Source: a virus. Taken from it: a stretch of 27,154 nucleotides of DNA. The notes beneath the pieces were generated by a model. That model saw only the letters and a program-made list of their open reading frames with translations, ran no database searches and had not been told where the DNA came from. The stretch is taken from positions 1-27,154 of the IMG/VR virus record IMGVR_UViG_3300031963_000782, one strand, 5' to 3'. Shown here one piece after another: positions 13,026-19,579 of the stretch (its first letter is position 1; every line of letters begins with the position of its first letter). The position numbers and the translations under genes are program-made.

Positions 13026-13255
13026 GTGTTCTTCCTCCGAACTACAGATTCAACAAACCTAGCAAACATCTTGAGATCGACATTGTGCCGATCCCACGAA
13101 TGCGTTAGTCCACGCAAATCAAAATCTGTAAGTTCAAACCACGTTTTTTCTGCCTTCTGCTGCCGCATTAGCTCAACGGTTTCCACAAGCTCATCCCGCT
13201 GCCTAATGACGCACTCTGGCCTCTGGCAGGTGTAGTTGCAAGAATGTATGTTCAT
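13022..13255 (-). CDS. Small Cys-containing phage protein, 77 aa
   Basis: The product opens MNIHSCNYTCQRPECVIRQR, followed by DELVETVELMRQQK and a C-terminal FDLRGLTHSWDRHNVDLKMF. The C-x3-C-x4-C opening with a following helix is a pattern I recall in many small phage proteins of the early region. A GGAG lies very close to the ATG (2 nt gap), and the start overlaps the zinc-ribbon gene's stop, so translation is probably by coupling. Role unknown. Confidence 0.66.
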   Translation of the reverse strand: MNIHSCNYTCQRPECVIRQRDELVETVELMRQQKAEKTWFELTDFDLRGLTHSWDRHNVDLKMFARFVESVVRRKNT

Positions 13256-13440
13256 CGCTCCAATCTCCCGTCTTGGTTAGCCTCGCCATCCACCTGAACG
13301 GTATCGGCTGGCATTTCGTATGTTGCCCACTCGTGACCGCATTCGCACAATCGTCTGCGCCACTTCCAACCGTATCTAGTGTCTTTCCTCGTCTCCAAGG
13401 TTTTTGACTTCCAACTCCCGCATTCCGAACACAGACTCAT
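13252..13440 (-). CDS. NrdR-like stand-alone zinc-ribbon protein, 62 aa
   Basis: The N-terminal region reads MSLCSECGSWKSKTLETRKDT and then WKWRRRLCECGHEWATYE. C4, C7, C32 and C34 (or H36) can coordinate zinc. The spacing and the 'RRR-C..CGH-W-TYE' ending closely resemble the zinc-ribbon half of the ribonucleotide-reductase repressor NrdR, but the ATP-cone domain is absent and the second pair is C-x-C rather than C-x2-C. GGAGGA is 5 nt before the ATG. It may bind DNA as a small regulator. Resemblance is by eye. Confidence 0.68.
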   Translation of the reverse strand: MSLCSECGSWKSKTLETRKDTRYGWKWRRRLCECGHEWATYEMPADTVQVDGEANQDGRLER

Positions 13441-13567
13441 ACTGTTCCTCCAGTTTTTTTATGTGGTAGTCATCGCAAAATCCACACAAGTAGATCAGGC
13501 CGATGATGACTCCAGACTCTTCCTCTCCGCGATCACAAGCAACTGCTTCTTTGCTTCCGGTTGACAA
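13376..13567 (-). CDS. Possible overlapping small gene with TTG start, 63 aa
   Basis: This frame fills the 54-nt gap between the P-like gene and the zinc-ribbon gene but overlaps both by about 65-73 nt. It starts at a TTG with a perfect GGAGGT five nt upstream, an unusually good ribosome site to find inside a coding region. The core LIYLCGFCDDYHIKKLEEQYE has a C-x2-C and a helix. The overlaps and rare start codon count against it. I list it as possible only. Confidence 0.33.
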   Translation of the reverse strand: MSTGSKEAVACDRGEEESGVIIGLIYLCGFCDDYHIKKLEEQYESVFGMRELEVKNLGDEERH

Positions 13568-14037
13568 TTGACACCTCCGTTTGCAATGTGCTCGGCAAGT
13601 ATGTCTGCCAGTCTGCTCTCTGTCCTGGCACCTCTAGCAATCTCCAAGACTGCTTGCGCTGATTTTGGAAACTTTGCCCAGTGCAAGAAATCAAACCCAG
13701 GAGTCCTGATCTGCTCTACCGCACCCTGAATGATTGCCTTTCCTTCCGGTGTGATCTCCTTCGGAGGCGGCAACGCTGCAACTTGGTGTTCCGCAACACG
13801 GAACTGCTTGCACAACTGAATCCACTGGGCAAGGCTTGGGGGCCAATCAGGAGGATCTGTTTGCAGATGGTTCAGAACCTTCTGAATCGTATCAACAGGT
13901 GTAGACCTAAGCTGTGCTTCCCATGCTGCTTTTGCCTGATCTATCTCCTCTGGAGTTTTGCCAAAGTTGGACAGCACTTTCTGCTTGCCCCACAGAAGCC
14001 CAAAGCGGTCGATTAGACGTTCGCAATAGCTCTGCAT
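13495..14037 (-). CDS. Replication protein P-like / helicase-loader-like protein
   Basis: A 180-aa, mostly helical protein starting MQSYCERLIDRFGLLWGKQKV. The segment HLQTDPPDWPPSLAQWIQLCK (W-P-P-S/T-x-x-x-W/F-x-x-L-C) is the characteristic centre of phage lambda-P/DnaC-loader-like and related replisome proteins. It follows the O-like gene, the classic O-P order, with a 25-nt overlap. It would recruit the host helicase to the phage origin. No Walker ATPase motif is visible. The C-terminus KKQLLVIAERKSLESSSA holds the SD and TTG of a possible overlapping small gene. Confidence 0.6.
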   Translation of the reverse strand: MQSYCERLIDRFGLLWGKQKVLSNFGKTPEEIDQAKAAWEAQLRSTPVDTIQKVLNHLQTDPPDWPPSLAQWIQLCKQFRVAEHQVAALPPPKEITPEGKAIIQGAVEQIRTPGFDFLHWAKFPKSAQAVLEIARGARTESRLADILAEHIANGGVNCQPEAKKQLLVIAERKSLESSSA

Positions 14038-14303
14038 TTGGCTTCTTCCATGTCAATCACGTTCTTGCCTGTAAGGTGGCTCCAGAGGTCTTGTTTGACC
14101 TGTTTCTTCTCCACCCAATCAGCCTTGAATCCTCGCCATCCCATTAGCACCATATGGTCTAGTGCCTGCTCCAAAGTCCACCCTACAATCTGTGCTTCCT
14201 CCCTGATTGAGTTGATAACGCGCTGCGTTACTATCGCCCGTTTTGCTTTTCTGTGTGCCAGGAAGTCGTCCCAGCAATCTTGAGGTACATCGACAGGTTT
14301 CAT
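14013..14303 (-). CDS. Replication O-like protein, C-terminal-domain-only form, 96 aa
   Basis: The N-terminal region VPQDCWDDFLAHRKAKRAIVT, then INSIREEAQIVGW and MGWRGFKADWVEKK reproduce the C-terminal domain of phage replisome organizers ('W..WL.HRK.K.APVT ... I..EA...G ... GW.GFKA.W'). The usual N-terminal winged-helix DNA-binding part is absent, so this is a short form. AAAGGAG is 5 nt before the ATG, and the promoter-like 39-nt element lies 35 nt upstream. It is the first gene of the leftward replication operon. Confidence 0.68.
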   Translation of the reverse strand: MKPVDVPQDCWDDFLAHRKAKRAIVTQRVINSIREEAQIVGWTLEQALDHMVLMGWRGFKADWVEKKQVKQDLWSHLTGKNVIDMEEAKCRAIANV

Positions 14304-14337
14304 GCGTTCTCCTTTAGCGTTTGCGAACTCTAAACCT

Positions 14338-14376
14338 GTTTTTGTGTCTTGTGTGGAAATATTTTTTAATAGGTTT
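14338..14376 (-). promoter_or_regulatory. 39-nt promoter/operator-like element, copy 1
   Basis: Read on the minus strand it starts AAACCTATT, continues with an A-run and ATATTTC, then ACACA and ends ACACAAAAAC. It matches copy 2 at 17829-17867 in 35 of 39 positions. It ends 34 nt before the ATG of the O-like gene and is oriented toward it. Arms AAACCT and AGGTTT (14332-14337 with 14371-14376) form an inverted repeat around it. A phage early promoter or repressor operator is likely. Confidence 0.65.
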
Positions 14377-14673
14377 GTCTGTTTCTATAGTTTTCTTTTA
14401 TCCCTGATCTCTTGAGACATAACTTCCCCAGGGTGGAGCACAGGACTGGCTTCCACCTCTCCCGCCTCTACCATCCTGTGATAGGGCCAGAGTACCCGGA
14501 GGCTGCGATTGTTTCGATGCTGGAGTGGTCTACCACCGCTGTCTCCAACATCTACACCAGTCCCTCGCAGACAGGCTGGTCGGCTCGCAATCAGGGTGAG
14601 GATTGGCCGGTGTTTACCGCTGGCACCCATGCAGGTGCACTACTTCGTGAGCGGAACGGCTGGCGTAGAAATG

Positions 14674-14746
14674 AAAAAAGCCGCTTAGTGCTACCCCCGG
14701 TCGAAACCCCATCTTTTGGGACAGGGCGGAGATAGCATTAAGCGGC
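14674..14746 (-). terminator. Long-stem rho-independent terminator after thyX operon
   Basis: Minus strand: arm 14746-14727 (starts GCCGCTTAATGC) pairs over 20 positions with arm 14699-14680 (ends CTAAGCGGC), with one A-C mismatch and two G-U pairs. A run of six T follows (14679-14674). The 27-nt loop contains a further small hairpin (CCC, AAAAGAT, GGG). It ends the leftward operon from the repressor to thyX and insulates it from the replication operon. Confidence 0.82.
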
Positions 14747-14797
14747 CTTACTCTGTCGGTTTCGACGCCAACAAAAGCATTCTATAGGTTTACAAAA

Positions 14798-15451
14798 TTA
14801 AGCGCAACTCAAGCTGTTGTCTGGAAAAAACGCATCCATAGTGATCGGTGCAACAGTACGCAACTGCGCCAAGACCTCACCTGCCAGTTCCCGGTGTTCC
14901 TTCTGTGTGGTTGGATCTAGCCTCTGCTGCAGATAGTGAATCCAAGAGCGCATAGTCCCATTCATATATAAACGAGACGTTGTCAGACCCTCTGGAAGGA
15001 TCGCTCTGGCCTGTTCCTTTGCAATACCCCTGGACAATGCCTCGGAGTACGCCTGATCGCACTGGCGAGCAATCCCAGCCTGTATAGCAGACCACCAGCG
15101 CTCCAGCTCCTGATCAGCAGTTGGAAGACTGTTTTGGCGGTTTTTAACATCCTGCAATCGTGCTTCTCTAGTGACACTTCCGCTCTGCAGGTAGTGGACA
15201 CTGGCATATCGCTGGCTGAATTCCTGGAACGAAAACGATCTGTGCCGAAGAATTTGCCTGCCGATGTCACGAGTGGTATCGATCTGCATGCAGACGTTAG
15301 CCATTTCAAACGGCGATACATGACCGTGTTGCATCAGATAACGCAAAAGGCCAGTCTTGCCAGAAGCTTGATCCTTGGGATTGCTCACCCGAGCGATGTA
15401 TAGGATCTGCTGGTCAATCTCTGGTGTAGCCCATTGGATACGTGCTCTCAT
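14798..15451 (-). CDS. thyX: Flavin-dependent thymidylate synthase
   Basis: The 217-aa product carries the ThyX signature RHRSFSFQEFSQRY at residues 69-82 (canonical RHRxxSxNExSxRY, here Q76 replaces N), preceded by HGHVSPFEMANVCMQI and followed by LPEGLTTSRLYMNGTMRSW, which contributes nucleotide binding. It makes dTMP from dUMP using FAD, NADPH and methylenetetrahydrofolate. ATGA overlap with the HNH gene. Length is within the family range. It supports phage DNA synthesis independently of host ThyA. Confidence 0.93.
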   Translation of the reverse strand: MRARIQWATPEIDQQILYIARVSNPKDQASGKTGLLRYLMQHGHVSPFEMANVCMQIDTTRDIGRQILRHRSFSFQEFSQRYASVHYLQSGSVTREARLQDVKNRQNSLPTADQELERWWSAIQAGIARQCDQAYSEALSRGIAKEQARAILPEGLTTSRLYMNGTMRSWIHYLQQRLDPTTQKEHRELAGEVLAQLRTVAPITMDAFFPDNSLSCA

Positions 15452-15732
15452 TTAGTCACCACCAGTCCGTCCTCGAACAGCACTAGCATAGTCTTGCGCC
15501 ATGCAGCTTCCCAAAGACTTTTACGTTCTTCGTAAGACAATTTGGAACCCTGGTCGATGTTGGCATGACAATGTACACACAATGCCGCTGAGTAAACATC
15601 GTGCGCTTTCATCCCCATGCCTTTTCCGTACTCCGTCCAGTTAGCATGAGCTGCTTGTGTCTCGCCTTCCTTCCCGCACAGTTGACACGGTAGGCTAGCG
15701 ACCGCCCGAAGCAGTGCCTTGTTTCTGTACAT
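15448..15732 (-). CDS. HNH-type nuclease (YbcO/DUF1364-like)
   Basis: In 94 residues there are two Cys pairs: C16-x2-C19 and C52-x2-C55, with AAHANWTEYGKGMGMKAHD between them and the histidines H29 and H56 (CVHCHANIDQG). This is the His-Me finger layout of the YbcO/DUF1364-type and related small phage nucleases, with a structural zinc. GAGGTG is about 7 nt before the ATG. In recombination/replication regions these proteins are thought to act as structure-specific or mismatch nucleases; the exact role is not shown here. Stop is coupled to thyX. Confidence 0.75.
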   Translation of the reverse strand: MYRNKALLRAVASLPCQLCGKEGETQAAHANWTEYGKGMGMKAHDVYSAALCVHCHANIDQGSKLSYEERKSLWEAAWRKTMLVLFEDGLVVTK

Positions 15733-15997
15733 TGTGCCACCTCATGATTTCGCGTTGGAGTTCCTCTTTCCCTGAGATCCCGCGTGATTTTTCTACCCGC
15801 TCTAAATACTCACGCCGCTTTTCTTTGCTTCTTTTGGACAGGACGTACTGCGCTTCGCAATACAATGCAAACGCATTACTTTGCAGTCCGACTATGGTTC
15901 CGTCTGGTAGATACTTGGCAATCGCTGAATCGTGTCTCTTTCCGCACGCATAGCACGCAAGTCGTCCGTCCAGGTCAAGCCCTTCTCCGTCGCCCAT
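15695..15997 (-). CDS. Small Cys-containing phage protein downstream of ninB, 100 aa
   Basis: The product holds RLACYACGKRHDSAIAKYL, then PDGTIVGLQSNAFALYCEAQ, a basic helix KRSKEKRREYLERVEKSRG and a helical C-terminus. One C-x2-C pair is seen near the start. AAGGGTG lies about 7 nt before the ATG. The first 106 nt overlap the 3' end of ninB in another frame and the last 38 nt overlap the HNH gene. The family is not recognised, but composition and the good SD support a real gene. A role beside NinB and HNH in recombination is plausible. Confidence 0.65.
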   Translation of the reverse strand: MGDGEGLDLDGRLACYACGKRHDSAIAKYLPDGTIVGLQSNAFALYCEAQYVLSKRSKEKRREYLERVEKSRGISGKEELQREIMRWHNVQKQGTASGGR

Positions 15998-16323
15998 GCA
16001 ATCACCCTTTCCACGTAGTCCGAGAAGGCAGCAGTTGTCATCCCTGTCGTAGTCGGCTCCTGCTCAACAACCTTGCCATTGGGTAGCTCAATCACCCTGC
16101 CATTCAAGAACAGGGTTTTGAAGTAGCAATGCCAAGTCTCGGCGGAGTATTCCGACCCAGGCTTGATCTGATTTGCGATCTCATGCAGGACAGCCCAATA
16201 AAGCGAGTTTTGAGCCGTTGTTCTGTTGGGTTTGGAGATGGACACCACCCACCCGGGTTTAGCGTCTCTAACAGCCTCTAAAGCCTGTTTCCTGGCATTG
16301 TCGTTAATCAGCGGAATAATCAT
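15892..16323 (-). CDS. ninB: NinB-like recombination protein
   Basis: The 143-aa protein opens IIPLINDNARKQALEAVRDA and contains TTAQNSLYWAVLHEIANQI, ETWHCYFKTLFLN and TTAAFSDYVERVIAWATEKG, the order expected for NinB, a lambda-type recombination mediator (Orf) that helps load RecA-like or annealing activities on SSB-coated DNA. GGAG sits 8 nt before the ATG. The ATG directly abuts the TAA of one upstream frame (TAAATG), while the methyltransferase frame ends 20 nt inside it. The C-terminus seems extended past the usual domain and overlaps the next gene. Confidence 0.82.
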   Translation of the reverse strand: MIIPLINDNARKQALEAVRDAKPGWVVSISKPNRTTAQNSLYWAVLHEIANQIKPGSEYSAETWHCYFKTLFLNGRVIELPNGKVVEQEPTTTGMTTAAFSDYVERVIAWATEKGLTWTDDLRAMRAERDTIQRLPSIYQTEP

Positions 16324-17206
16324 TTAGCAATCTCCATGCTTCTGCTGCACAGAGAGGGACTTGTCCGTTGCCAATGGCTTTAAGTCTGTCCACCCTAGCG
16401 GCCACCCCATCAGCCACTCGACCCACGTTGGGTTCAACTTGCCACCATTCCCGGCTCCCATCAGCCTGGCTTCCTCGGTGCTTGTGTTCTTGTTTAACAG
16501 TTCCCATGAACCAGTGCCGCCACACATCCCAGCCGTTCTCGGTGTGGGACAGTTCTTCACTGCTGTTGCCAGTCCATCCCCGCTGTTTTTGCTGGCTCCT
16601 TTGCGGTTGTAATTCACGCATACTGTCGGTGTGGGCCAGTGAACCTGTGTCCCCAGATTGGGAGACTTCCGATTGCCCTGAGTTGTCCCGCTGTCCTTCC
16701 AATCCCGAGCGTTTGGACTTGCCCACAATCCAGATTCTGTCCCTCTGGTGATTGGCTCCAACGTCTGCTGCTCCCATAACAGTCCATTGCGTGTCATACC
16801 CCAGCGCGGTAAGGTCTGCAATGACTCTGGTTCCTCCCCGAGTAGTAAGCATTGGGGAGTTTTCCACGAACACGAATCGAGGTCGAACTTCGCCAACCAC
16901 GCGCGCCATGTGCGTCCACATTCCTGATCGCTCACCGTCAAGTCCGGCGCCTTTTCCTGCGGCGCTGATGTCTTGGCATGGAAACCCGCCAGATACAACA
17001 TCAACAATTCCTCGCCACGGCTTTCCGTCAAAGGTTTGTATGTCATCCCAAACCGGGAAAGGCGTGAGAAAACCGTCATTTTGTCGGGCGCACAGTACGC
17101 TTGCTGGATATGGTTCCCACTCGACGGCGCAGACTGTTCGCCATCCAAGCAGGTGTCCTCCAAGTATTCCTCCACCAGCGCCTGCGAAAAGAGCCAACTC
17201 ATTCAC
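16304..17206 (-). CDS. DNA (cytosine-5) methyltransferase
   Basis: All main C5-methylase motifs are visible in the 300-aa product: motif I LFAGAGGGILGG (residues 6-17, SAM binding), motif IV GGFPCQDIS with catalytic C77, motif VI FVENSPML (E115-N116; the usual ENV is ENS), motif VIII QRDRIWIVG (154-162) and motif X AIGNGQVPLCAAEAW (277-291). The region between VIII and X, the target recognition part, is hydrophilic. It starts with GTG overlapping the nuclease stop, 4 nt after AGGAGG. It probably protects phage DNA from restriction or alters regulation. The same DNA is open in a second frame. Confidence 0.88.
   Translation of the reverse strand: MNELALFAGAGGGILGGHLLGWRTVCAVEWEPYPASVLCARQNDGFLTPFPVWDDIQTFDGKPWRGIVDVVSGGFPCQDISAAGKGAGLDGERSGMWTHMARVVGEVRPRFVFVENSPMLTTRGGTRVIADLTALGYDTQWTVMGAADVGANHQRDRIWIVGKSKRSGLEGQRDNSGQSEVSQSGDTGSLAHTDSMRELQPQRSQQKQRGWTGNSSEELSHTENGWDVWRHWFMGTVKQEHKHRGSQADGSREWWQVEPNVGRVADGVAARVDRLKAIGNGQVPLCAAEAWRLLNDYSAD
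16324..17202 (-). CDS. Overlapping ORF in second frame of the methyltransferase locus, 292 aa
   Basis: This frame lies entirely inside the methyltransferase gene on the same strand. The ATG at 17202 is 8 nt after AGGAGG and follows the nuclease stop (TGA-ATG); its TAA abuts the ninB ATG. The product begins MSWLFSQALVEEYLEDT, has a middle with SGLWASPNARDWKD and HWPTPTVCVNYNRKG, and ends with LNPTWVEWLMGWP. I recall protein-database entries with the same opening and with LNP-WVEWLMG endings, but many could be the same overlapped frame. It is either a real overprinted gene or a conserved shadow; the junctions favour translation. Confidence 0.45.
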   Translation of the reverse strand: MSWLFSQALVEEYLEDTCLDGEQSAPSSGNHIQQAYCAPDKMTVFSRLSRFGMTYKPLTESRGEELLMLYLAGFHAKTSAPQEKAPDLTVSDQECGRTWRAWLAKFDLDSCSWKTPQCLLLGEEPESLQTLPRWGMTRNGLLWEQQTLEPITRGTESGLWASPNARDWKDSGTTQGNRKSPNLGTQVHWPTPTVCVNYNRKGASKNSGDGLATAVKNCPTPRTAGMCGGTGSWELLNKNTSTEEARLMGAGNGGKLNPTWVEWLMGWPLGWTDLKPLATDKSLSVQQKHGDC

Positions 17207-17511
17207 AATTCCTCCTCTTTGAGTTTCCAGCGGTTGCCCTCCTTGTACCAGCCATGAAGGACAACCCTCCAGCCAGACTTCAACATTTCTGGATACGCTT
17301 CCGCATCCTCGATCTTGTGTTTCCTGGCTGACAGGTTGGACTTGCTGGTGACCTGCACAGCAACCGTTTCATTGTTCCCAATTGCCAGTAGATCGATACA
17401 GCCAAACAGGTCGTGCTTGCGCTTGGTGAAAGCGTTGTAGTGCTCTACCGTCGCAACCAGATACCCAAGATCACTCAGGTGCGCTTTGCTTTTTGCCGTC
17501 AGACTGACCAT
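17203..17511 (-). CDS. PD-(D/E)XK-like nuclease-fold protein
   Basis: The 102-aa protein contains HDLFGCIDLLAIGNNETVAVQVTS, where D41 (or D34) and the QVTS strand stand in for the D...(D/E)xK catalytic core, with Q in place of the second acid. This 'F-G-x-I-D-x-L ... VQ-T' pattern recurs in small phage proteins of the restriction-endonuclease-like fold. GGAG lies 7 nt before the ATG, and the 5' end overlaps the repressor gene by 41 nt. Its location beside a methyltransferase and NinB fits DNA processing. Activity is uncertain because of the Q. Confidence 0.66.
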   Translation of the reverse strand: MVSLTAKSKAHLSDLGYLVATVEHYNAFTKRKHDLFGCIDLLAIGNNETVAVQVTSKSNLSARKHKIEDAEAYPEMLKSGWRVVLHGWYKEGNRWKLKEEEL

Positions 17512-17746
17512 TGAACACTCCAGGACACAGATCAGATGCCTTCACTCGACCGTCTGTCAGACGCTCAATCTCCAGTGCTCGCTTGAGAGGGATTCCAAAG
17601 TCACGCCACTTGTAGATCGCCTGCCGACTCAACTCTAAATGAGCCGCTAGTCTGCTAGTCCCACCGAGATACGCTGCTGCCACCTTCAATGCTGTTTGAC
17701 TGTCGATGTACGCTGCTGCTAACTTCTCTGCTGTTTGACTGTCCAT
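17471..17746 (-). CDS. Cro/YdaS-like helix-turn-helix repressor
   Basis: From ATG 17746 (AGGAGGTGTCAAC directly upstream) the protein is 91 aa. Residues 29-47 (GTSRLAAHLELSRQAIYKW) are a helix-turn-helix and the following IPLKRALEIERLTDGRV and KASDLCP complete the Cro/YdaS-type fold. The gene diverges from the plus-strand early operon across a 164-nt control region, the usual place of a Cro/CI regulator. The N-terminus carries two near-identical 13-residue copies (DSQTAEKLAAAYI, DSQTALKVAAAYL). A longer in-frame start at 17794 has no SD. Confidence 0.8.
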   Translation of the reverse strand: MDSQTAEKLAAAYIDSQTALKVAAAYLGGTSRLAAHLELSRQAIYKWRDFGIPLKRALEIERLTDGRVKASDLCPGVFNGQSDGKKQSAPE

Positions 17747-17747
17747 G
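17670..17747 (-). repeat. Tandem 39-bp duplication at the 5' end of the repressor gene
   Basis: 17670-17708 and 17709-17747 are adjacent copies matching in 34 of 39 positions, both starting TACGCTGCTGC and ending with TTTGACTGTC-ATG on the plus strand. The period equals 13 codons, so the frame is kept. The upstream copy includes the actual start codon of the repressor. It extends the helical N-terminus by one repeat. Confidence 0.82.
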
Positions 17748-17910
17748 TTGACACCTCCTGCCCGGATGGTACACTGACGGTTGATACGTTGCAAACAGAG
17801 CCTATAGTTTTTCGCTAATACAACAACAAAACCTATAAAAAAATATTTCTACACACAACACAAAAACGTAGGCATAATGACAACCATTGCAACACAACAC
17901 GGGGAAGCAA
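17747..17910. promoter_or_regulatory. Divergent control region between repressor and rightward early operon
   Basis: This 164-nt AT-rich region separates the leftward repressor gene from the rightward early genes. It includes TTGCAA with TACCAT at 17-nt spacing on the minus strand as a weak candidate for the repressor promoter, CTATAG at 17802, TATAAA at 17834-17839 as a candidate -10 box for rightward transcription, and the 39-nt shared element. GGGGAAG precedes the first plus-strand ATG. Operators for the Cro-like protein are expected here. Confidence 0.6.
17829..17867 (+). promoter_or_regulatory. 39-nt promoter/operator-like element, copy 2
   Basis: Plus-strand sequence starts AAACCTATA, continues with an A-run and ATATTTC, and ends ACACAAAAAC; it matches copy 1 (14338-14376, minus) at 35 of 39 positions. 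It lies 43 nt before the ATG of the first rightward gene and points toward it, as copy 1 does for the leftward replication operon. CCTA and TAGG (17832-17835, 17869-17872) flank it as dyad arms. Confidence 0.65.
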
Positions 17911-18084
17911 ATGCTGATTCAGACCTTAGAACAGATGTACGAGATGCTTGAGAAGATGGCAAGGTACGACATAGAACATTGCCATCTAAGTAGAGATTAC
18001 TTAAAAGAAGCTGGCATCGATTACTTCAAAGATATCCTTACCATCCAGTCCAACATTCAATTTTTCTTGAGGAGCGACAAATGA
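17911..18084 (+). CDS. First rightward early gene, 57 aa, helical
   Basis: The product MLIQTLEQMYEMLEKMARYD... is a helical, acidic-to-neutral small protein ending NIQFFLRSDK. The ATG is preceded by GGGGAAG 3-4 nt upstream; a TTG 24 nt earlier is a poorer start. The stop is coupled to the next small membrane protein (ATGA). As the first gene of an immediate-early operon it may be a host-interaction or regulatory protein, but nothing else shows this. Confidence 0.66.
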   Translation: MLIQTLEQMYEMLEKMARYDIEHCHLSRDYLKEAGIDYFKDILTIQSNIQFFLRSDK

Positions 18085-18230
18085 GAGAGAACGACGAGAA
18101 CCGCTGGGAAGCTGAGGTGCAACGCTACAAAGAAGAGCAGGAGATGAAAGAGAAGATCATTGAGGGAACGCTGTTCAGCATTGCCGCAACGATGTTCTTC
18201 GTCATCCTGGTCGCAGCGATGGCACTATGA
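18081..18230 (+). CDS. Small single-span membrane protein, 49 aa
   Basis: A 49-codon gene coupled at both ends (ATGA with the 57-aa gene, ATGA with the 66-aa gene). The first 28 residues are charged and helical (WEAEVQRYKEEQEMKEKIIE). Residues 30-49 (TLFSIAATMFFVILVAAMAL) form one membrane helix at the extreme C-terminus, the layout of a tail-anchored protein with its N-terminal part in the cytoplasm. GAGGAG lies 6 nt before the ATG. Function unknown; superinfection exclusion or membrane anchoring of an early complex are possibilities. Confidence 0.72.
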   Translation: MRENDENRWEAEVQRYKEEQEMKEKIIEGTLFSIAATMFFVILVAAMAL

Positions 18231-18427
18231 TCTGTGACCCCAGCTTTGTCTGGGTACCAAGCGCCGCCACAGACGTAACGCAAACATGGCGCAAATTCGG
18301 GTGGAAACCTATTTCGGAGAGAACAGATAATGAAGCACATCGCATCCGCGCTCGTCAAAGCGCAGCAAGCATTCGGGCCAGCATTGAAATCGAGCAGCAA
18401 TCCGCACTTTCGCAGCAAGTACGCTGA
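18227..18427 (+). CDS. Small conserved-type early phage protein, up to 66 aa
   Basis: The frame starts with an ATG overlapping the previous stop (ATGA). Its first half, MICDPSFVWVPSAATDVTQT and then WRKFGWKPISE, fits a recurrent small phage protein type with a 'VPS..TDV..TW...GW.P.SE' line. The usual protein ends about there; here the frame runs on for 98 nt inside the ERF gene, adding an Arg/Ala/Ser-rich tail. So the C-terminal part may be accidental. No function known to me. Confidence 0.6.
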   Translation: MICDPSFVWVPSAATDVTQTWRKFGWKPISERTDNEAHRIRARQSAASIRASIEIEQQSALSQQVR

Positions 18428-18884
18428 TCTATCCGCAGTTGTCGAGGCTGTGATCGATGGACTAAACAAGAACGGTATCGCCATGCTGCAACTGACCCAT
18501 GAGTGCGATAACGGCGTGATCGTTGAAACAATGTTCGTACATGAGTCAGGCGAGACACTCAGCGGAGGCAAGCTGCACGTTCCAGCTACCAAACAAGACG
18601 CACAAGGCTACGGATCAGCCTTGACCTACGCTCGCCGCTACAGCCTGATGGCAGCTACGGGCATCGCTCCAGAGGATGACGACGGTAACGCTGCAAGCAA
18701 GAAGCCCATGAAACCGCTGGATGCCGCAGGAGCCTGTAAAACGCTCTCAGAGGCTGGATCGATGGAAGACCTGAAAGTTATCTATGCCAAGGCGTTCAAG
18801 TCGTTCCAGGGCGATGCTGAGGCGCTGAAGGCTATCGACGCAGCCAAAGACAAGCGAAAAGGTGAGTTGCTGGAGATTGCGTGA
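18330..18884 (+). CDS. erf: ERF-family single-strand annealing protein
   Basis: The 184-aa product has the ERF core: NPHFRSKYADLSAVVEAV at residues 24-41, then CDNGVIVETMFVHESGE and DAQGYGSALTYARRYSLMA followed by GIAPEDDDGNAA. ERF-type proteins anneal complementary single strands, and drive recombination-dependent replication and circularisation. It is followed directly by the YqaJ exonuclease, the usual annealase-exonuclease pair. The SD (GGAGA) is some 11 nt away from the ATG, so initiation may also rely on the overlapping 66-aa frame. C-terminal region is helical. Confidence 0.9.
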   Translation: MKHIASALVKAQQAFGPALKSSSNPHFRSKYADLSAVVEAVIDGLNKNGIAMLQLTHECDNGVIVETMFVHESGETLSGGKLHVPATKQDAQGYGSALTYARRYSLMAATGIAPEDDDGNAASKKPMKPLDAAGACKTLSEAGSMEDLKVIYAKAFKSFQGDAEALKAIDAAKDKRKGELLEIA

Positions 18885-19579
18885 TGGAACAGCGAACCGA
18901 TGAGTGGTTCAAAGAAAGACTTGGACATGTGACCGCGTCAAAAATCAAAGATGTTCTTGCCAAAAAAGGAACTGCAACAAGAGGCAATTATTTGATGCAG
19001 CTTGTTTCTGAGCGGCTTACTGGACAAAGAGAGGAAACTTTTGTTTCTGCTGCAATGAAAAGGGGGATTGAAGTTGAAGACAAGGCAAGAATGGCTTATG
19101 AATCAATATATGGATTTGTTGAAAAAACAGGATTTCATAAGCACAAAAAAATTAAGTGGTTTGGAGCGTCTCCAGACGGTTTAATTGGAGAAGACGGTGT
19201 ACTTGAGATTAAGTGCCCAAATACTGCAACTCATTTGGAATACATAAGGACAGACAAAATACCTATGCAATATATGCTGCAAATGACCGCGCAAATATCA
19301 TGCACAGGTAGAAAGTGGGCACATTTTGTTAGTTTTGATGACAGGCTTCCAGAGGGTTTACAGCTTTTTGTAAAGGAGTACGAGCCATCTTGGACTGATG
19401 TTAATTTTGTCAACAGAAGAGTTATCGAATTTGTAAAAGACGTTGAAAAGGAGCTTGAAGAATGCCAGTCTTATATGAAGTCACCGCAGCAGGTGAAAAA
19501 TACACCACCAAAGACGGAACAGAAAAAACCAAATGGATCAGAATCGGATCTGTCATCCAAACCAAGTCAGGAAAAATGA
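18881..19579 (+). CDS. YqaJ/lambda-exonuclease-family 5'-3' exonuclease
   Basis: The 232-aa protein shows EQRTDEWFKERLGHVTASKI at the start, KRGIEVEDKAR (E64/E66) and the core GASPDGLIGEDGVLEIKCP with D99, E109 and K111 as catalytic residues, then a long helical tail. This is the YqaJ viral recombinase type. It resects duplex ends for the ERF protein. GTG at 18881 overlaps the ERF stop (GTGATGG), and ATG 18884 is the alternative start. The gene is strikingly AT-rich (about 30-43% GC in sampled 60-nt blocks against 62% in ERF). The last 118 nt overlap the next gene. Confidence 0.88.
   Translation: MMEQRTDEWFKERLGHVTASKIKDVLAKKGTATRGNYLMQLVSERLTGQREETFVSAAMKRGIEVEDKARMAYESIYGFVEKTGFHKHKKIKWFGASPDGLIGEDGVLEIKCPNTATHLEYIRTDKIPMQYMLQMTAQISCTGRKWAHFVSFDDRLPEGLQLFVKEYEPSWTDVNFVNRRVIEFVKDVEKELEECQSYMKSPQQVKNTPPKTEQKKPNGSESDLSSKPSQEK

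Follow-up and report, generated by a model that had tools for sequence, protein, structure and literature searches.

A shared operator-like dyad and A/T block upstream of two early promoters in a group of uncultivated phages

Two early operons of an uncultivated phage, one carrying replication genes and the other recombination genes, are preceded by copies of the same promoter module, in which an operator-like dyad, an A/T-rich block, a poor -35 hexamer, and a -10 hexamer follow one another at fixed spacing. The module was studied in a 27,154-bp uncultivated virus record (IMGVR_UViG_3300031963_000782, positions 1 to 27,154; hereafter the window), and it recurs upstream of the same genes in related phages. 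The explanation that we favor with moderate confidence is that the copies are the upstream halves of early promoters used by the host sigma-70 polymerase, where alpha contacts and a Cro-like protein at the dyad would subject the operons to control in common. Because dozens of related phages have kept it, the module is probably a means of joint control of replication and recombination genes in these phages.

According to this proposal, the alpha-CTD of RNA polymerase would bind the A/T block and thereby compensate for the poor -35 hexamer, while the phage's own YdaS/Cro-like protein would occupy the adjoining operator in fixed phase. The replication (O/P) and recombination (Erf/exonuclease) operons would in this way come under common control, and would more probably be boosted than shut off.

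Anatomy of the module

The first-pass annotation had singled out two 39-nt segments, 14338-14376 on the minus strand and 17829-17867 on the plus strand, as agreeing at 35 of 39 positions, and this is accurate. The agreement is also far above chance, as had been asserted: the best pair reached 29 matches in five dinucleotide-preserving shuffles of the window, and no other inverted 39-mer pair in the window has at least 35 matches. When extended, the inverted pair covers 46 nt at 85% identity. The distances given for the two copies were likewise right, with copy 1 located 34 nt from the ATG of the O-like gene (14303) and copy 2 located 43 nt from the ATG at 17911, and the labels "early" and "O-like" are backed by matches to O-like, P-like, Erf, and YqaJ/RecE-like families.

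Other parts of the original description needed revision. Neither copy had been thought to have a clear -35 box, which is partly true, but each nonetheless ends in a weak -35-like hexamer: CACACA lies 17 nt from TAGAGT in copy 1, and TACACA lies 17 nt from CATAAT in copy 2, where a promoter scan flagged the same pair. The 39 nt do belong to a promoter element of the two early operons, but the true unit is longer (Table 1). Similarly, the notion of an activator-dependent promoter or repressor operator was sound insofar as an operator-like dyad is joined to the element, but the marked 39 nt chiefly cover the A/T block together with the -35 region, with the operator standing just upstream.

Table 1. 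Coordinates of the module copies, the genes they precede, and the candidate regulator in the window
Feature	Position	Strand	Remarks
Copy 1 module	14327..14402	-	Upstream of O-like gene; contains the minus-strand 39-nt segment
Copy 1 operator (candidate)	14385..14402	-	Right half CTATAG 14385-14390; degenerate left half GATAA 14398-14402; placed by spacing rule
Copy 1 A/T block	14357..14372	-	CTATTAAAAAATATTT; UP-like, 10/11 to AAAWWTWTTTT
Copy 1 -35-like CACACA	14350..14355	-	
Copy 1 -10-like TAGAGT	14327..14332	-	Predicted start near 14320
Copy 2 module	17803..17878	+	Upstream of rightward early operon; contains the plus-strand 39-nt segment
Copy 2 operator (candidate)	17803..17820	+	TATAG-N7-CTAATA; minus strand reads TTAGCGAAAAACTA
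Copy 2 A/T block	17833..17848	+	CTATAAAAAAATATTT; UP-like
Copy 2 -35-like TACACA	17850..17855	+	
Copy 2 -10 CATAAT	17873..17878	+	Predicted start near 17885
O-like replication gene	14013..14303	-	First behind copy 1; phrog_678, E 8.5e-12
P-like helicase loader gene	13495..14037	-	Weak match, phrog_109, E 9.9e-6
Rightward early operon	17911..19579	+	Small ORFs, then Erf-like and YqaJ/RecE-like
Erf-like annealing protein	18330..18884	+	In rightward early operon
YqaJ/RecE-like exonuclease	18881..19579	+	In rightward early operon
YdaS/P22-Cro-like regulator	17471..17746	-	Candidate operator binder; PF15943, E 1.8e-13; PF14549, E 1.3e-12
Putative promoter of Cro-like gene	17766..17794	-	TTGCAA-17-TACCAT, read by eye

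The conserved unit can be written as [A/T]TA[G/A]-N7-CTA[A/T]-N14-C[G/T]AT-A/T block-poor -35-17 nt-(-10). Its dyad, TTAG-N7-CTA(A/T), stands 18 bp upstream of the C(G/T)AT sequence and the UP-like A/T block, and this step is fixed. In a count anchored on the A/T block alone, CTATAG or CTAA was found at gap 12 upstream of the block 12 times, against an expectation of 0.12; wherever TAG is present, exactly 7 nt separate it from CTA. The dyad can flip while the rest of the module keeps its direction, as illustrated by an Erf copy in locus L019 (CTATAG-N7-CTAAC) versus another copy in that locus (GTTAG-N7-CTATAG). Thus, the dyad is a separate symmetric site.

The downstream half of the unit has the geometry of a sigma-70 promoter. 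Across 24 non-redundant copies, similarity to TTGACA is greatest at +17 and similarity to TATAAT at +40, counted from the anchor, so that hexamers 17±1 nt apart recur at a fixed place, although those of the window's own copies are weak. Within the -10 region, conservation is highest for A at position 2 (83%) and T at position 6 (79%) of the hexamer. Relatives carry near-canonical -35 sequences at the same place (TTGACC in L020, TTGACG in L028, and TTGTCA in L043), which mark this hexamer as a sigma-70 -35. Furthermore, the A/T block fits the UP consensus AAAWWTWTTTT at 10 or more of 11 positions in 58% of copies versus 1% of shuffles of equal composition. If transcription starts seven bases past the -10 hexamer, simple arithmetic puts the A/T block between about -52 and -37, with the dyad center at about -74.

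These features argue against the earlier suggestion of a phage-specific promoter, since the unit includes a -10 hexamer of the sigma-70 type along with a degraded -35 and gives no hint of a phage RNA polymerase or a special sigma factor. A repeated element with a poor -35 in the window is what had spoken for such a promoter. With sigma-70 hexamers at 17-nt spacing that are near-canonical in relatives, and with no phage polymerase seen among the genes examined (without a dedicated search), we regard this reading as highly improbable.

Conservation among relatives and the noncoding stretch beside copy 1

The search for further copies in relatives that the first-pass annotation had recommended revealed that relatives keep the element in front of the same genes. 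A pattern built from the window's two copies matched eight viral contigs, three of which have both copies in the same arrangement. A strict pattern matched 17 viral contigs, and 14 of these also encode the protein of 17203-17511; of the other three, L099 and L101 appear to be the same phages, and a similar site is present in L096. Relatives were collected by way of a neighboring 102-aa protein (78 loci), with the element itself playing no part in the choice. When a matrix derived only from the two copies in the window was applied, 28 sites beyond the close relatives scored more than 18 bits, compared with 0.6 expected in shuffles. Many of the loci, which come from partial contigs, are near copies, and removing copies at least 90% alike left the 24 non-redundant ones analyzed above.

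Copies of the module precede one of three targets: the Erf/exonuclease operon, the O-like gene, or a third operon that begins some 900 nt past O. Nine of 17 non-redundant upstream regions of O-like genes contain the module, whereas the others are apparently continuous with an upstream open frame or belong to distant homologs. In the window, no third copy was found in the stretch behind the P-like gene. For third-operon copies, the -35 and -10 hexamers read by eye appear shifted by about one helical turn (L071, L072), which is a tentative assignment because the profile has several peaks and the core is ambiguous. One might also view the copies as an inverted repeat for DNA inversion or as a replication origin element, given that they are inverted, lie 3.4 kb apart, and adjoin O at one end. 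However, orientation tracks transcription in the relatives, including a third copy that is oriented as the O copy, and these readings were rejected as very unlikely.

The region that separates thyX from copy 1 contains a noncoding stretch that is both conserved and structured. At the beginning of this stretch, over ~105 nt, a covarying RNA (14673-14776, minus strand) comprises two hairpins and a U-run (z -6.05) and is immediately preceded by a promoter-like TTGCGC-17-TAGAAT sequence. The loop of the first hairpin (GUUGG..CCGAC) is complementary to the interior of the following terminator-like hairpin, and a 5-nt piece of the loop has an exact downstream complement in 22 of 23 sequences, which include seven different loop sequences. 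No Rfam match to the structured RNA was found, and cultured phages gave no DNA match to 14304-14797.

The stretch also includes a noncoding module of ~260 nt (14406-14664, minus strand) that is highly conserved, has 1-nt indels, and favors G-U over A-C pairs in its minus-strand fold. This module is apparently mobile, since it is also present in a different setting in contigs of other phages (L109, L110, L111, L114, L118, and L119). There, the RNA module has no promoter element behind it, and some examples lie shortly downstream of a terminase gene. In L071 and L080, a seemingly coding insertion of ~340 nt separates the terminator-like hairpin from the 260-nt module (alignment A1, columns 130-470). 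A diversity-generating template repeat was considered for the ORF at 14412-14735 and was dropped given the 1-nt indels in relatives.

Candidate regulator and sign of control

By its sequence, the dyad is of the RacR/YdaS operator type. The racR-ydaS region of the Rac prophage in E. coli K-12 contains TTAGGCAATCCCTAC, TTAGGCACAGCCTAT, and TTAGGCGTCGCCTAA, for which the ideal form is TTAGGC-N3-GCCTAA with the core TAG-N7-CTA, and relatives of the window carry TTAGGCATTGCCTAT. In the window, the only TTAG-N7-CTA site is that of copy 2, and copy 1 retains one half. This sequence is rare in the records studied and is often confined to the module, as in G009, where all three sites are within it. RacR binds the racR-ydaS region, including a 49-bp piece bearing one repeat (PMC5700373), and in CP-933P both YdaS and PaaR2 bind the ydaS intergenic region, which has palindromes with the half-site GTTTAGTAA (PMC8630535). 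The match provides the strongest tie to a known regulator class because the window's own regulator is YdaS/P22-Cro-like. A second operator lying on the A/T block was also considered and rejected, since there is no conserved left half and the 18-bp step is unlike the 25-26 bp of Rac.

The regulator gene is encoded alongside the operator, adjoining copy 2 and divergent from the rightward operon. The solved structure nearest in sequence to its product is 3bd1, a Cro protein; BLAST gave no alignment with K-12 YdaS, and the link to that protein runs through the Pfam family. A single YdaS/Cro-like gene is present in 14 of 16 records. No integrase (PF00589) was detected in 16 records and no CI-like HTH_3 match above the cut-off in 10, in records that may be incomplete and for a CI that may be divergent, which suggests, without proving it, that these phages are virulent and have no CI. 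A tandem 39-bp duplication (85%; 17665-17742) lies at the start of the Cro-like gene, and most relatives align from the second ATG. Another candidate regulator is a 62-aa protein (13252-13440, minus strand) that matches the NrdR-like zinc ribbon PF22811 and is present in 36 of the loci collected.

Additional evidence on function comes from the Erf promoter, where the module and a good -35 hexamer replace one another. A perfect TTGACA is present in seven of seven cases without the module and in none of nine with it. Counted by lineages, which were grouped by eye without a tree, TTGACA occurs in three of three without the module (L026, the L066/L070/L072/L080 group, and the L030/L032 group) versus none of six with it, or about 1 in 84 by chance. 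L026 retains the leftward Cro promoter sequence despite lacking the module, which indicates that the module serves the Erf side. Strong promoter contacts can offset weak ones (PMC2613000), and offsetting a weak -35 is the behavior of a UP element or of a site for an activator, whereas the trade-off would have no evident reason at a site used purely for repression.

Repression deserves serious consideration as an alternative, since the known YdaS is a repressor that acts on both PL and PRM in CP-933P, where PaaR2 also represses PL (PMC8630535). If the module were a common repressor operator in the manner of lambda OL/OR, the Cro-like protein on the dyad, and perhaps also on the C(G/T)AT half-site, would cover the A/T block and lower both operons. 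The operator type of the dyad and the cro-like gene next to copy 2 are in keeping with this possibility. However, the dyad center near -74 is beyond the usual polymerase footprint, and the Rac operators differ in that they lie within a 123-bp racR-ydaS region and apparently overlap the ydaS promoter hexamers. Repression also leaves unexplained both the strict 18-bp step and the perfect -35 that appears upon module loss. We consider such an operator rather unlikely; activation appears more likely than repression in light of the dyad's placement near -74, its strict phasing, and the -35 trade-off.

Even if the A/T block acts via the alpha-CTD, the dyad might be a relic or the site of an unrelated host factor. 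A host factor as the binder is possible because the recognition helices of the Cro-like proteins vary among lineages while the dyad is constant, and the consensus fit of the A/T block, together with a weak -35 where the block is present and a perfect one where it is absent, would suit promoters with UP elements only. This account is improbable, however, as the dyad spacing is exact and the dyad is largely limited to these promoters. Our preferred explanation, in which the Cro-like protein shares in the control, has its own difficulties, including the degenerate left half-site in copy 1 and a trade-off that rests on three versus six lineages. A more specific scenario, offered tentatively, is that a Cro/YdaS-like protein has turned activator in these apparently virulent phages without CI. 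Bound to a classic prophage operator that has shifted to about -74 and is in phase with a site for the alpha-CTD, this protein would turn on the operons for recombination and replication, the cores of which would be too weak to work unaided.

Comparison with known systems

For a group of uncultivated phages, the module delimits an early regulon that can be put to experimental test, and it shows the re-use of a lambdoid operator upstream of weak promoter cores. Moreover, promoters with the module and a poor -35, and those with a perfect TTGACA and no module, form a natural series for measuring how upstream contacts trade against the -35.

The closest parallels for the dyad are Rac and CP-933P. 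The Rac racR-ydaS region shares both the dyad and a regulator in the same Pfam family, but has three operators 25-26 bp apart between racR and ydaS, whereas here there is one per promoter, at about -74 and 18 bp from the A/T block. CP-933P resembles the present case in that a second promoter, PL, is served by its operators as well (PMC8630535). Both prophages differ from this family, in which no CI-like gene was detected. Lambda OL/OR is similar in that a single type of operator is shared by two early operons, of which one adjoins cro. Lambdoid operators overlap the -35 and -10 hexamers, whereas the operator here is upstream of the -35 with its center near -74 from the inferred start; moreover, the second copy is directly at O/P, and neither CI nor integrase was detected.

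For the promoter side, rrnB P1-type UP elements likewise place an A/T block that fits AAAWWTWTTTT just upstream of the -35, but here the block is tied at constant spacing to an operator dyad. The Mu Pm promoter, too, works with sigma-70, lacks a -35, and joins an activator-type phage dyad to a site for the alpha-CTD (PMC4390567), although in our case activation is only proposed. In Pm, the 16-bp Mor site is at -43.5 and a partial UP subsite lies upstream of it (PMC4390567), so the order of dyad and UP element is the reverse of that in the module described here.
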